Positions 1-45,412 of a DNA stretch of 64,000 bases are shown here, in pieces; positions within the stretch are counted from its first letter, which is position 1; every line of letters begins with the position of its first letter. The notes under the pieces were generated by a model that worked only from the letters and a program-made list of their open reading frames with translations, was not told the origin of the DNA and did not search any database. The position numbers and the translations under genes were made by a program. Origin of the DNA: Siminovitchia fordii DSM 16014 = CIP 108821. Lineage in GTDB: Bacteria; Bacillota; Bacilli; Bacillales; Bacillaceae_C. The stretch lies in NCBI RefSeq assembly GCF_000374565.1, contig NZ_KB894685.1:410221-474220 (forward strand), read 5' to 3'.

Positions 1-147
1 AAAGTGAAGAGTATTTCGGAAAATCTCAAGAGTATCCCTGAAAAGTGAAGAGTATTTCGGAAATCTCAAGAGTATCCTTCGAAGGTGAAGAGTATTTCGG
101 AAATCTTAAGAGTATCCTTTTAAAGTAAGAGCATTTATATAAAACTC
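1..147. repeat. Tandem array of a ~40-bp AAGAGT repeat (left copy, runs off the window edge)
   Basis: About three and a half head-to-tail units of 40-41 bp. Each unit has two similar halves, one with the core GAAGAGTATTTC and one with CTCAAGAGTATCC. The GAAGAGTATTTC core starts at 6, 47 and 87; the last unit, from about 121, is decayed. The array ends at the stop codon of the ankyrin pseudogene (146-148) and probably continues left of the window. It belongs to the same family as the larger array at 36091-36390. The period is not a multiple of three, so it is not coding. Confidence 0.85.
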
Positions 148-695
148 AATGATTATAGACTACACTGCCATCTAATCCACTACTTTCTCGACTGATCATC
201 TCCAGAACTTTCTTCGTTTCGACTGTTCCACGTTCATCTATCAATTGCTTTTAGTGAATAGCCTGATTTGTTTCTATCATGAACATTCGGTTGTTTCTTC
301 AAACATCTAACAATGAATTCATCTCCTTCTTCCGTGCGCTTTTTTAATACTTCTAGACATAGAGTAAAGATTGCTGAGTTGGAGAATTTCTTATCTTTTA
401 AATTTAAATCAACCCTTTTCAAACAATCTATCAGCCACATCCACTTGACCTGCAAAATTAATTTTTGCTGCTAAGAAATGCAACTCATTAAAGCCATCAT
501 TGGAGACAACATTAACCTTTGCATCAGTGTCCTGCAGATAATTTGCAATATCAAACTTTCTGCTAATTAATGACTTTTCCAGTAAACTTATACCTTTTTC
601 ATCAACAGAGTCTACTACCTCTTAAATGCTTTCATTTTCAACTTCCAATATTGGTGATTCTTGAATGTCAATATAGGGACTTTGAATATGGATCT
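146..695 (-). pseudogene. Decayed ankyrin-repeat protein gene
   Basis: Reading the minus strand across three frames gives a continuous ankyrin-like protein. One piece reads DEKGISLLEKSLISRKFDIA followed by a DAKVNVVSNDGFNELHFLAA-type repeat. The next piece begins VDLNLKDKKFSNSAIF and contains KKQPNVHDRNKSG. The last piece is DERGTVETKKVLEMISRES. The reading frame carries a TAA near 620 and needs frameshifts near 420 and 240, so the gene is dead. The 5' end is lost at about 695, where an IS3-type OrfA remnant begins. Ankyrin proteins of this kind are often found beside polymorphic toxins, but no toxin is visible here. The ankyrin call rests on the N-x-x-D/N-G-x-x-x-L-H pattern and is an inference. 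Confidence 0.55.
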
Positions 696-698
696 TAC

Positions 699-1021
699 TT
701 AACGCCACCTATTGATTTCCTCTAACTTTTTAAAATCAGATTTACTGCACGTAATCGTTTCTAAACGTAGTTTGACTTCAGCGCATAACTCTTCTTCTGG
801 TGTTTTGTATAGCCACGATGATACTGTAAGCCGGGCTCACTATTCTCTTCATATTTTTTGATCCATTGATATACCTGTTGGTAAGGAACTTTACATTGCC
901 AATCCTTGATCGTTCGATTATCAACTCTATATAATTCTGCCAGCTCATTAAGAGTAAAGTGGCTATTGTTATAAAAGTATAAAATCCATTTTTATTCTTT
1001 TGAAAAGCTATATCTTCTCAT
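699..1021 (-). pseudogene. IS3/IS150-type transposase OrfA remnant
   Basis: The minus strand from the ATG at 1021 encodes MRRYSFSKE, then an in-frame TAA, then NELAELYRVDNRTIKDWQ (helix-turn-helix) and QVYQWIKKYEENSEPGLQ. After a frameshift near 810 it continues with a TPEEELCAEVKLRLE / FKKLEEINRWR tail and a stop at 699. This is the normal layout of an IS3-family OrfA: HTH, GL motif, then a leucine-zipper tail. OrfB, the DDE integrase, is absent, so the element cannot move. It abuts the ankyrin pseudogene and probably truncated it. Confidence 0.6.
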
Positions 1022-1028
1022 AAAAAAT

Positions 1029-1085
1029 CTCCCCAGTAGGCAAACAGATTTTATTTTTTCATCTGTCTACTTATCGGGGAGCATA
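1029..1085. repeat. Imperfect inverted repeat upstream of the OrfA remnant
   Basis: CTCCCCAGTAGGCAAACAGAT on the left pairs imperfectly with ATCTGTCTACTTATCGGGGAG on the right. This hairpin sits directly upstream of the OrfA start. It resembles the terminal end plus leader hairpin of IS150-group elements, so it probably marks the left end of the dead insertion sequence. Confidence 0.5.
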
Positions 1086-1136
1086 TCATTATTAGATAAT
1101 GTTTAAAAATTGGGCTGCAGTTCAGAAGAAGCGGTT

Positions 1137-2765
1137 TTATATCCTTATAATTTGATGTCGGCCGTCAAATTCATACGGCAAGTTCAACAATTCATCGATA
1201 AAATTCATTCCGTACTCATTCAAATAATAAAAGATGTTCCATATTCTTTCCTGGGGCTGGCCGTCAGGCTTGAGTATTTGCTCAACACGATGATATTTTT
1301 CCAACGTGGAACCATGTTTCCTTGCAATACTGTCTTCCACTTTTCTTTGCAAAAATTCAAGTTGTCTTATCTGCACTGCCAAGTTGGATTCCGCCAAATG
1401 AACGTGCCCTTGGTCAATTTCCCTAACTTTTGCAATGATTTCCTTGTAGCGGTTGTCTATCTCGTTTTTTGTCTCCATAATCAACGACTCAAATCCTTCA
1501 TCCTTAATAGAGGCCAAAAAACGTTCTTTTTCTTCCGCTGTCCCCCTGTTCAATACAGCTTCGATTGACAAATTCAATTCATCCAAATCTCTGTCCGCCG
1601 TCTTATCAAGTAGAGTAATATTCAGTCTTGGTACAATAGGAGGCACCTGACTCCCCATTTTCTGAAATGCCGGAAGAAGTTCTCCCCAGTATGCGATTTC
1701 TCCAGGTCCCGCAATAAATGCCAGTGTAGGAAACAGCCACTCCTGCATAAGCGGGCGCGTGACTACATTATTACTGAATCGCTCAGGGTTCGATTCAAGT
1801 AATTCCATGAGCTCCTCTTCAGTAAAACGCAGTTCGTTTGTTTTGCTGACAAATATATTTTCTGTCGGATCAAACTCAAGCAGCTCCCGTTCATTTTCAT
1901 GATAATAAAATAGGTTTGCTGCATAGCCGTCAATTTCAATTGCTTTTGAAAAACCCATGCCCTGTTTTTTTTCCTGCTGATTAAGTACGGAATCAGTGAT
2001 CACTTGCCTATTATGAATCAAGCGGGAGAAAAAAGGCTTTTCGAGCTGTCGAAGCTTTGGATCGGCGGAATCGATGAGAAGCAAGCCATAATCTTTAAAG
2101 AAATACATGACCAAATATGAAAAAAATTCGGTGAATGTCCTTGTTTGTGTAATTGCTTCATCAACGACAGCAAGCATTTCTTTCGTATGGGCACGATCTC
2201 CAAAATATGAAAAGACTTGCCGGATCCATGTATGCATTTTATTTTTATCGAACTCGATATGGGAAGCCATCATTTTTCCAGTAAAGGTTTCATTATAGTT
2301 CTTCTTTTTAAAATTCTCTTTTTGCGGAGCAAATATATGATTGATCTCCAAATGATCATGGTCCTCACCAGCAACCCAAAATATCGGAACGACAGGCTGG
2401 CCCAATGCCTTTTCTTGCTGCTCAGCCAATTTTATTATTGAAATGATTTTATGTATTGTATATAAAGGTCCTGTCAGTAATCCGGCCTGCTGTCCACCAA
2501 TCACGGCAACCGACCGGCTGTCACGGAAACTCTCAAGTGAACGCTTAACGGCGGCAGAAGTTGGAAACTTATTCATATAATGATTGATGCATTCGGCCAT
2601 TCCTTCCCGGTTAAAATCCCGTTTCATCAAATCATCATATCGCTGCCGGAAAACTGTTTCTTCTTTTATATTATATTGAAAGAAATCCTTTACAGATTCC
2701 ATATCTTCAATGTATAGCGAAGCAAAGCGATTTGTTGCCAATACGGCAGCATTTTCCAATTCCAT
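1137..2765 (-). CDS. bshC: Bacillithiol biosynthesis cysteine-adding enzyme BshC
   Basis: Adds L-cysteine to glucosaminyl-malate, the last step in making bacillithiol, the low-molecular-weight thiol of Firmicutes; cytosolic. The 542 residues match the usual family length (about 540). Visible conserved blocks are GGQQAGLLTGP (residues 90-100) and FWVAGEDHDH (129-138) in the Rossmann-like core, followed by a charged, coiled-coil-like stretch around 420-490. The start ATG has AAGGAAG upstream with good spacing. Synteny is right: in B. subtilis bshC (yllA) follows panE (ylbQ), as here with one small gene between. The cell-division cluster that normally follows bshC is not in the window; an IS/repeat scar lies downstream instead. 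No clear terminator is seen. Confidence 0.93.
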   Translation of the reverse strand: MELENAAVLATNRFASLYIEDMESVKDFFQYNIKEETVFRQRYDDLMKRDFNREGMAECINHYMNKFPTSAAVKRSLESFRDSRSVAVIGGQQAGLLTGPLYTIHKIISIIKLAEQQEKALGQPVVPIFWVAGEDHDHLEINHIFAPQKENFKKKNYNETFTGKMMASHIEFDKNKMHTWIRQVFSYFGDRAHTKEMLAVVDEAITQTRTFTEFFSYLVMYFFKDYGLLLIDSADPKLRQLEKPFFSRLIHNRQVITDSVLNQQEKKQGMGFSKAIEIDGYAANLFYYHENERELLEFDPTENIFVSKTNELRFTEEELMELLESNPERFSNNVVTRPLMQEWLFPTLAFIAGPGEIAYWGELLPAFQKMGSQVPPIVPRLNITLLDKTADRDLDELNLSIEAVLNRGTAEEKERFLASIKDEGFESLIMETKNEIDNRYKEIIAKVREIDQGHVHLAESNLAVQIRQLEFLQRKVEDSIARKHGSTLEKYHRVEQILKPDGQPQERIWNIFYYLNEYGMNFIDELLNLPYEFDGRHQIIRI

Positions 2766-35694: not shown

Positions 35695-35982
35695 TCATTT
35701 TTCACTTTGAGTAAATGCTTCGTGAAGCGCAGACAGTTTCCTTTCCAATGAAAAAATCAACTCTTTCCCGTCCTTTTCGTCGACCAGACCGAGACGGACG
35801 GCAAAATCTATCTCACGAGAAAAGCCAAACATTTGTGTATCAAGAACTTCCTCGTATAAAGGACATTGAGGCATTGTTAAGTTGTCCATTTGCACCTGAA
35901 TCAAACGCAATATTTTCTCTGCGTCTGCCTTCAAAAGAGCATAGGCTTTTTCCCGATGATTCAGCTTTATATCAGACACCAC
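35695..35982 (-). CDS. ylaN: YlaN family iron-homeostasis protein
   Basis: A 95-residue cytosolic protein, DUF1507/YlaN. The stretch [20 protein letters not shown] is the family signature, followed by [17 protein letters not shown]. YlaN is essential for growth in low iron in B. subtilis and has been linked to Fe(II) and the Fur regulator. The frame begins 11 codons earlier, but the GTG at 35982 (or 35979) follows AGGGGA at 6 nt and matches known starts. It has its own strong promoter. Confidence 0.88.
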
Positions 35983-36027
35983 ATTTAATCCCCCTATCTC
36001 CGGACAAATAGACAATACTATCTGTAA

Positions 36028-36090: not shown

Positions 36091-36390
36091 AAGTTAAGAG
36101 TATTTCTAAAATCTGAAGAGTTTCCCGGCAAAGTTAAGAGTATTTCTAAAATCTGAAGAGTTTCCCGGCAAAGGTAAGAGTATTTCCTAATTCCGAAGAG
36201 TTTCCCGGCAAAGTTAAGAGTATTTCCTAATTCCGAAGAGTTTCCCGGCAAAGTTAAGAGTATTTCCTAATTCCGAAGAGTTTCCCGGAAAAGGTAAGAG
36301 TATTTCCTAATTCCAAAGAGTTTCCTGACAAAAGTTAAGAGTATTTCTAAAATCTGAAGAGTATCCCTACAAAGTTAAGAGTGTTGCATC
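36091..36390. repeat. Tandem array of the 40-bp AAGAGT repeat (right copy)
   Basis: Seven full units and a partial eighth, starting at 36091, 36131, 36171, 36211, 36251, 36291, 36332 and 36372. Each unit is two related 20-bp halves, with cores AAGTTAAGAGTATTTC and GAAGAGTTTCCCGGCA. Units are contiguous with no spacers. Two sub-types of the first half exist (TCTAAAATCT and CCTAATTCC), arranged in blocks. The array fills the divergent ylaN-ylaL intergenic region. A 77-codon minus-strand frame through it is an artefact, since 40 is not a multiple of 3. Confidence 0.93.
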
Positions 36391-45175: not shown

Positions 45176-45213
45176 ATAAAAGGAGCGCCCCATCCGGGAT
45201 TCTCCTTCTTTAC
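45176..45213 (-). terminator. Intrinsic terminator of SR1
   Basis: Minus strand: AAGGAG ... CCC ... GGG ... CTCCTT stem, then TTATTTTTT. It lies immediately after the SR1P stop codon. Confidence 0.75.
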
Positions 45214-45215
45214 CA

Positions 45216-45332
45216 TCAGTTTTCATCTGTCTTTTCATTACATTCACAGCAGCAGGAATACAACTTTGTCACTTTTTCATCCTCAAAGTAATCGATAGTA
45301 GAATTGCATTCCTGGCAGATGATGATCCCCAT
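45216..45332 (-). CDS. sr1P: SR1P, GapA-binding peptide encoded in SR1
   Basis: A 38-residue peptide MGIIICQECNSTIDYFEDEK followed by VTKLYSCCCECNEK. It closely matches B. subtilis SR1P (MGTIVCQDCN...HYFEDEKVT). Cysteine pairs CQEC and CCEC suggest a zinc knuckle. SR1P binds GapA and stimulates RNase J1 activity; the rnjA gene is also in this window. The ATG at 45332 is used because longer frames would begin upstream of the transcription start. Confidence 0.88.
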   Translation of the reverse strand: MGIIICQECNSTIDYFEDEKVTKLYSCCCECNEKTDEN

Positions 45333-45383
45333 AATCTCCATCCCTTCCCTGCGAACAGACTTGAAAATGTATTCATTAAAGTC

Positions 45384-45412
45384 ATAATAATATAACACAT
45401 ATCATTTATCAA
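45384..45412 (-). promoter_or_regulatory. SR1 promoter with predicted CcpN operator
   Basis: Minus strand TTGATA (45412-45407), 17-bp spacer, TATTAT (45389-45384), a near-consensus sigma-A promoter. TGTGTTATATT (45399-45389) fits the published CcpN box TRTGHYATAYW and overlaps the spacer and the -10. This predicts repression on glycolytic carbon sources, as in B. subtilis. Confidence 0.75.

Follow-up and report, generated by a model that had tools for sequence, protein, structure and literature searches.

Two arrays of one repeat family in the window

Short tandem repeats occupy two places in the window, the 64,000-nucleotide stretch of the Siminovitchia fordii genome analyzed here, and the question is how they came to be there and whether anything besides their own multiplication maintains them. 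The S. fordii genome (own genome) is designated G000 and those of five sister species G001-G005.

When the window was searched with Tandem Repeats Finder, array 2 (36091..36390, plus strand) was resolved as a 40-bp period with 7.3 copies and 90 % matches at 36091-36382, or about 15 units of 20-21 bp, which confirms the seven-plus contiguous 40-bp units reported in the initial annotation. Array 1, represented by its 3' part (1..147, plus strand), has the same period with 3.4 copies and 88 % matches at 1-136, followed by a decayed last unit. The earlier estimate of about 3.5 units was therefore close for this part, but the array is cut by the window edge: it begins 198 bp before the window, extends over approximately G000:C1:410023-410345 and contains an assembly gap (run of N). 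The two arrays belong to one repeat family and have identical orientation. With at most one mismatch, AAGAGTATTTC was observed 10 times in the window (1.76 expected; maximum of 6 in 100 shuffles).

Array 2 is located between two conserved genes. The gene to its left (35695..36015, minus strand; DUF1507, Pfam PF07408, E-value 4.8e-41), which we take to be ylaN from the gene order, has an orthologue in all six genomes. The divergent 165-aa gene to its right (P165; 36461..36958, plus strand) has orthologues in all five sisters, and a Pfam search returned no family above the cut-off for it. Array 1 lies between mraZ and bshC (1137..2765, minus strand; Pfam PF10079, E-value 2.3e-130; orthologue in 6/6 genomes). 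Positions 148..1136, part of the 2.1-kb mraZ-bshC stretch that holds array 1, have no counterpart in the sisters; a 73-aa ORF found there had no Pfam match, and this segment without a recognised gene may be a decayed insertion. Elsewhere in the window, on the minus strand, 15066-15185 and 45176-45386 matched the Rfam entries for the ylbH leader and SR1 sRNA.

Repeat unit and homogenisation

The basic unit of the family is 20-21 bp long (AAGAGTATTTCYnnAAAnTG), and two alternating versions of it often give a 40-bp unit; by eye, versions with ATTCYG-like and AAAGTG-like ends alternate in many arrays of the own genome. The proposed 40-bp unit of two 20-bp halves was thus right in that both halves carry AAGAGT, but the elementary unit is the 20-21-bp one. 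Among units pre-selected by the start motif, 224 were 20 bp, 47 were 21 bp and two were 19 bp in length. When 23 arrays of five genomes (G000, G002-G005) were segmented with a seed free of AAGAGT, under a penalty on gaps, 476 units of 20 bp, 97 of 21 bp, six of 19 bp and one of 27 bp were obtained. Higher-order periods of 120-201 bp also occur within arrays.

The variant preferences noted earlier for the left and the right array are visible in both, and the units abut without spacers, as had been described. A lack of coding potential had also been stated; this is essentially correct, although one reading frame is open in some arrays (ORFs of 191 aa and 155 aa).

Local homogenisation, likewise proposed from the two window arrays, was measured on 10 of the 18 array pieces of the own genome: the best match of the 303 units was 96.8 % identical when sought within the array of the unit itself and 87.8 % when sought in the nine others. 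Some units are found unchanged at more than one site, with three exact 20-mers common to array 1 and the C4 array, and one each to array 2 and C11, C4 and C6, and C11 and C18. In our reading, these common units point to a short run of units that seeded a new site and then grew.

Distribution in the genome, the genus and beyond

The own genome contains at least 18 array pieces, a piece being a cluster of at least two 11-mer matches with up to one mismatch in the fetched stretches. Since the contig-end pairs C34/C16, C22/C32 and C30/C38 continue each other by sister synteny, these pieces represent at least about 15 intergenic sites. The 18 pieces total 8.4 kb (0.19 % of the genome). According to the ORF reading they lie between genes, the few overlapping ORFs look spurious, and three sites adjoin a terminator-like hairpin (by eye). 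The search pattern proposed in the initial annotation had at least 60 exact matches in the own genome and none when reversed, so that the family is far from confined to the window. By Pfam, ten of the neighbouring genes encode a CoA transferase, a class-III aminotransferase, an aldehyde dehydrogenase, a class-IV aminotransferase (pabC from its context), a GDSL lipase, an MMPL protein, anthranilate synthase (trpE), DNA polymerase I (polA), a DEAD helicase (cshA from its context) and a Band 7 protein. Arrays account for three contig breaks in the own assembly.

We derived a sequence model of three units (R1) from 56 own-genome stretches. At E-values of 0.01 or lower, the six genus members had at least 161, 9, 13, 44, 37 and 6 matches; related arrays, whose presence in sister species the initial annotation had left to be checked, are carried by all five sisters. 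Array presence and copy number differ between species (one genome per species), and the arrays could serve as strain markers. When 34 genomes of the taxonomic family were searched at E-values of 1e-4 or lower, all six genus members and one of the 28 others appeared among the matches listed. G017, outside the genus, carries 181 nearly identical units of AAGAGTATTTTTCTCTATCC (L161:6995-10631; 20-bp unit, 99 % matches) that start in the T-run after a terminator-like hairpin. This array was first found by a pattern demanding AAGAGT and may therefore be convergent with the Siminovitchia family. A 21-bp array is present at the same kind of place in G024 (L162:7902-8035).

In an order-wide sample of 299 genomes, matches were found in the own genome and G053 alone. 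The G053 match resembles, by eye, the in-gene place of L018 and is attributed to chance; the sisters are absent from the order-wide matches (unsampled or lost to stricter filters), so this search adds little. Over the named genome collection, the initial search pattern gave 58 stretches with one match each, a list in which records near the own genome are perhaps missing. Four of the 58 were inspected: two are Siminovitchia relatives with the family, and two are chance-like and lie inside genes. In pattern scans of viral contigs, the matches listed were mostly single. Applied to nine viral loci, R1 gave two weak GC-rich matches, both in one locus; viral contig L348 has one 20-bp array, which R1 did not match. 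BLAST, run with its low-complexity filter on, returned no match when one array was compared with plasmids and a second one with phages. A full-text literature search, in which subscription journals are mostly uncovered, listed no paper on this repeat family, and the papers containing the 12-base core or its reverse complement were unrelated by title.

Sites that are empty in the sister species

When the two window sites were compared with the orthologous places in the sisters, both were empty in all five. The spacing between ylaN and P165 is 445 bp with the array in the own genome and 171-222 bp without it in the sisters (5/5; G001 from residue 6). Conserved blocks flank the site and are both intact; the array itself lies in the unalignable spacer between them, where it replaces about 50-70 bp, so that a clean insertion junction cannot be seen. 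The bshC-mraZ spacing is 2100 bp in the own genome and 128-131 bp, without an array, in all five sisters. Here array 1 is embedded in about 1.7 kb of further DNA absent from the sisters, and the site was thus perhaps gained by a larger insertion. An R1 match at the bshC locus of three sisters (E-value 0.003) was set aside as it is inside mraZ. Because the two sites are empty in every sister, the window arrays have probably arisen recently, a sequence-based reading that supports the seed-then-expand course suggested in the initial annotation.

Similar observations were made at other sites of the own genome. In G001, G003 and G004 the pabC site closes without an array, and none of the five sisters has one at the polA site. 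At the cshA site a long array in the own genome corresponds to two units in G001 and none in G002-G004; at the trpE site no array is present in G002 and G004, and a short weak match was found in G001. For the C7 site, both flanks were located in G001 and G004, and the stretch between them had no R1 match. For at least six own sites, no sister in which both flanks could be located has a full array; C6 has no orthologue in the sisters, and C11 and C15 were followed on one flank only. In G002, the pabC site holds, in place of an array, a short stretch of different extra DNA (L484:2893-3065), and the place perhaps takes insertions repeatedly. An R1 match in this locus (E-value 0.016) lies away from the junction and was set aside.

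Older sites and other flavours of the unit

At one site, between the CoA-transferase and aminotransferase genes, all six species carry an array of identical orientation, although that of G001 numbers only 2.8 copies. The G003 array at this oldest site is very diverse (20 units, 19 of them distinct). Family units are also present upstream of a NERD-domain gene in the own genome and in G001-G004. Downstream of this gene, the units of G002 and G004 are opposite in orientation to the own array. The NERD orthologues of G002 and G004 are flanked on either side by family units that share one orientation, and in the own genome the gene stands between two oppositely oriented arrays (L076:5725-7850, on C16). 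A search for the NERD gene found none at the orthologous place in G003 and G001, though the upstream units are present. We also considered the NERD-domain nuclease as a general mobiliser and rejected it, as the association concerns one orthologous locus and the other two NERD genes of the own genome are far from every array found.

At two further sites the unit itself differs between species. At the lipase/MMPL site, the AAGAGT flavour is present in the own genome and G004, a vestige only in G001 (by eye), and 14 units of another flavour, which keeps GGTA, in G005. At the aldehyde dehydrogenase site, other flavours or remnants were observed in G001-G004 (the remnants in G002 by eye). R1 matched neither the arrays of G003 and G004 at the aldehyde dehydrogenase site nor that of G005 at the lipase site; what ties these flavours to the family is therefore period, location and a short core, and unrelated origins at a repeat-prone location could also account for them.

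Constraint within the unit

For the 23 arrays, distinct units were linked to their nearest neighbour and the changes were counted per column, using the 244 of 329 links with three or fewer differences (85 links with more were left out). The 398 changes were distributed non-uniformly over the 20 columns (chi-square p 2e-16, a value that assumes independent nearest-unit differences and that gene conversion between units could inflate). Columns 4-7, the AGTA core, had 37 changes when 79.6 were expected uniformly and 81.2 with base matching. Without the three arrays not matched by R1, 33 of 342 changes fell in AGTA (68.4 expected). Columns 15-16, an AA block about 10 bp from AGTA, had 15 changes against 40 expected. 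In the sister arrays the lowest four-column window was columns 4-7 (20 changes); in the own arrays it was columns 2-5 (15), with columns 4-7 second (17, tied). The AGTA deficit was present in 18 of the 23 arrays and absent in five. Chi-square per degree of freedom was 4.5 in the own and 3.5 in the sister arrays of the 20-bp family; in the controls, whose numbers are small, it was 1.3 and 2.0 (the second significant) for two 52-bp arrays of the own genome and 1.0 for a 58-bp array with two changes only. Moderate evidence from these comparisons suggests that the AGTA core is selected, or required by the copying process.

Origin and persistence of the arrays

All six genus members searched carry the family and hold an array at one common site, and the unit is partly constrained. 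The family shows the traits of a minisatellite, namely spacerless contiguous units and one family at many loci, and neither a gene nor transposon ends were found in the arrays. We conclude that they are probably a genus-level selfish dispersed minisatellite of Siminovitchia with a constrained core, which is seeded, expanded and decaying. A short run of 20-21-bp units would be copied out of an existing array to a new position between genes, as suggested by the sites empty in sisters and by the exact units in common. The array would then expand by slippage or unequal recombination, presumably in multi-unit steps in view of the local homogenisation and the 120- to 201-bp higher-order periods. Later it may decay or give way to another flavour of the unit, as the orthologous sites indicate. 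Arrays would persist where they do little harm: between genes, beside hairpins and, at ylaN, between conserved blocks. The AGTA core and, one helical turn from it, the AA block may have been kept because copies with them were amplified or bound.

This last alternative leads to a different account, in which the arrays are platforms for a sequence-specific DNA-binding protein with a nucleoid, segregation or regulatory role. The 20-bp period would set AGTA and AAA on one helix face and leave the rest as free spacer. Such a role agrees with several observations: AGTA and the AA block change less in own and sister arrays alike, 579 of the 580 segmented units are 19-21 bp long (in a segmentation that penalises gaps), this length is held even in the diverse oldest-site array of G003, and one site is occupied in all six species. 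Predicted curvature, calculated with wedge parameters, was at or above the 94th percentile of column-permuted controls in seven of 13 sister arrays; dinucleotide shuffles destroy the period and are a poor control, and against column-permuted units the effect is modest. However, no own array (0/10) exceeded the 86th percentile, and the mean over the 23 arrays was 0.74. The sites are not conserved either, at least six own ones being without a full array in the sisters, and orientation followed no significant rule with respect to replication (array strand opposite in 10 cases, the same in four and unclear in one; p 0.18). We therefore regard binding platforms as unlikely. In its more specific form, a genus-specific protein would bind AGTA and the AA block and keep arrays for the age of the genus while the sites and the rest of the unit turn over, which we find doubtful; a bacterial counterpart of satellite DNA co-evolving with its binding protein, which is what this would amount to, is just as doubtful. 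As free and constrained columns are separated in the minisatellite unit, the question of selfish-only or also-bound arrays is directly testable, and the constrained core would surprise a specialist if it were a binding site.

The remaining explanations are less probable. Minisatellites inside a non-autonomous transposon would resemble the BrickBuilt element, which, in the accessible part of its description, also has roughly 20-nt repeats without spacers at numerous intergenic loci, and array 1 does lie within a 2.1-kb stretch absent from the sisters. But 30 flanks of own arrays had no common leader, tail or terminal repeat, the single similarity among them was 20 bp long (ylaN and C34), and the pabC and ylaN junctions are, by eye, without a clear target duplication, which makes this origin very unlikely. 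A function as RNA (structured transcript, terminator or CRISPR-like guide) could be imagined for arrays that are placed between genes and possibly transcribed. We consider it highly improbable: array 2, the one array that was folded, had a predicted folding z of +2.2, worse than shuffles, and +1.4, not better, on the other strand; no Rfam family was found at the window arrays; and abutting units leave no unique spacers of the CRISPR kind. Own arrays contain six contig ends and three N runs, as would be seen with an artefact of assembly or chance, but conserved genes flank the window arrays, related arrays occur at orthologous sites in the assemblies of other species, and the shuffle and reversed-pattern controls were far lower, so that the chance of an artefact is practically negligible. 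In the reading that we favour, the birth, growth, decay and possible replacement of arrays can be followed by comparison within a single bacterial genus, with empty sites for reference.

Comparison with known repeat systems

Among dispersed bacterial minisatellites, the Siminovitchia family is closest in look to BrickBuilt, without its transposon ends. BrickBuilt is a minisatellite/MITE of Porphyromonas gingivalis with spacerless 23-nt tandem repeats at 19 intergenic loci in one strain and a leader and tail with IS5-type terminal inverted repeats, according to the part of the source available (PMC4596501). As far as that part goes, the likeness lies in the spacerless units of about 20 nt and the many intergenic loci per genome. 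The Siminovitchia arrays differ in that no leader, tail or terminal repeats were seen in the 30 flanks of the 18 pieces, in unit flavours that vary between sites and species, and in the constrained core.

E. coli palindromic units are intergenic, often clustered palindromes of 30-37 bp, as summarised in the accessible portion of PMC2884548. On that summary, the Siminovitchia units are comparably short, intergenic and often clustered, but array 2 is without a stable hairpin and folds no better than chance, unlike REP or palindromic units. Small dispersed repeats (Elhai et al., as cited in the same portion of PMC2884548) are in some cases 20 bp, tandem, varied in copy number, dispersed and possibly mobile. 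The size of about 20 bp, the tandem arrangement and the dispersal are shared with our family, in a comparison by description alone and limited to this second-hand account. The work of Elhai et al. was reportedly done on cyanobacteria. The mycobacterial interspersed repetitive units (MIRU-VNTR) are one family at many intergenic loci and are used for typing; by description, the Siminovitchia arrays resemble them as a single family of tandem repeats spread over many intergenic loci. MIRU-VNTR units are longer and belong to a different phylum.

Other tandem repeats observed

Several other arrays were observed in these genomes. G005 has 24.6 copies of the GGTATTTCC flavour of a 20-bp unit at L490:2543-3035, and the same flavour is found at its lipase site (L470:3241-3531). 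Another 20-bp unit is repeated 37 times with 99 % matches in G001 (L148:13768-14509). Arrays of 52-bp units are present in the own genome at L070:8033-8631 (11.5 copies) and L084:7792-8667 (16.8 copies), and further arrays of this period in G001 (L471) and G024 (L162). A 58-bp unit occurs in 10.7 nearly identical copies in G004 (L154:2785-3406). In the own genome, three copies of a 106-bp unit (L069:5164-5483) adjoin the array at the aldehyde dehydrogenase gene.
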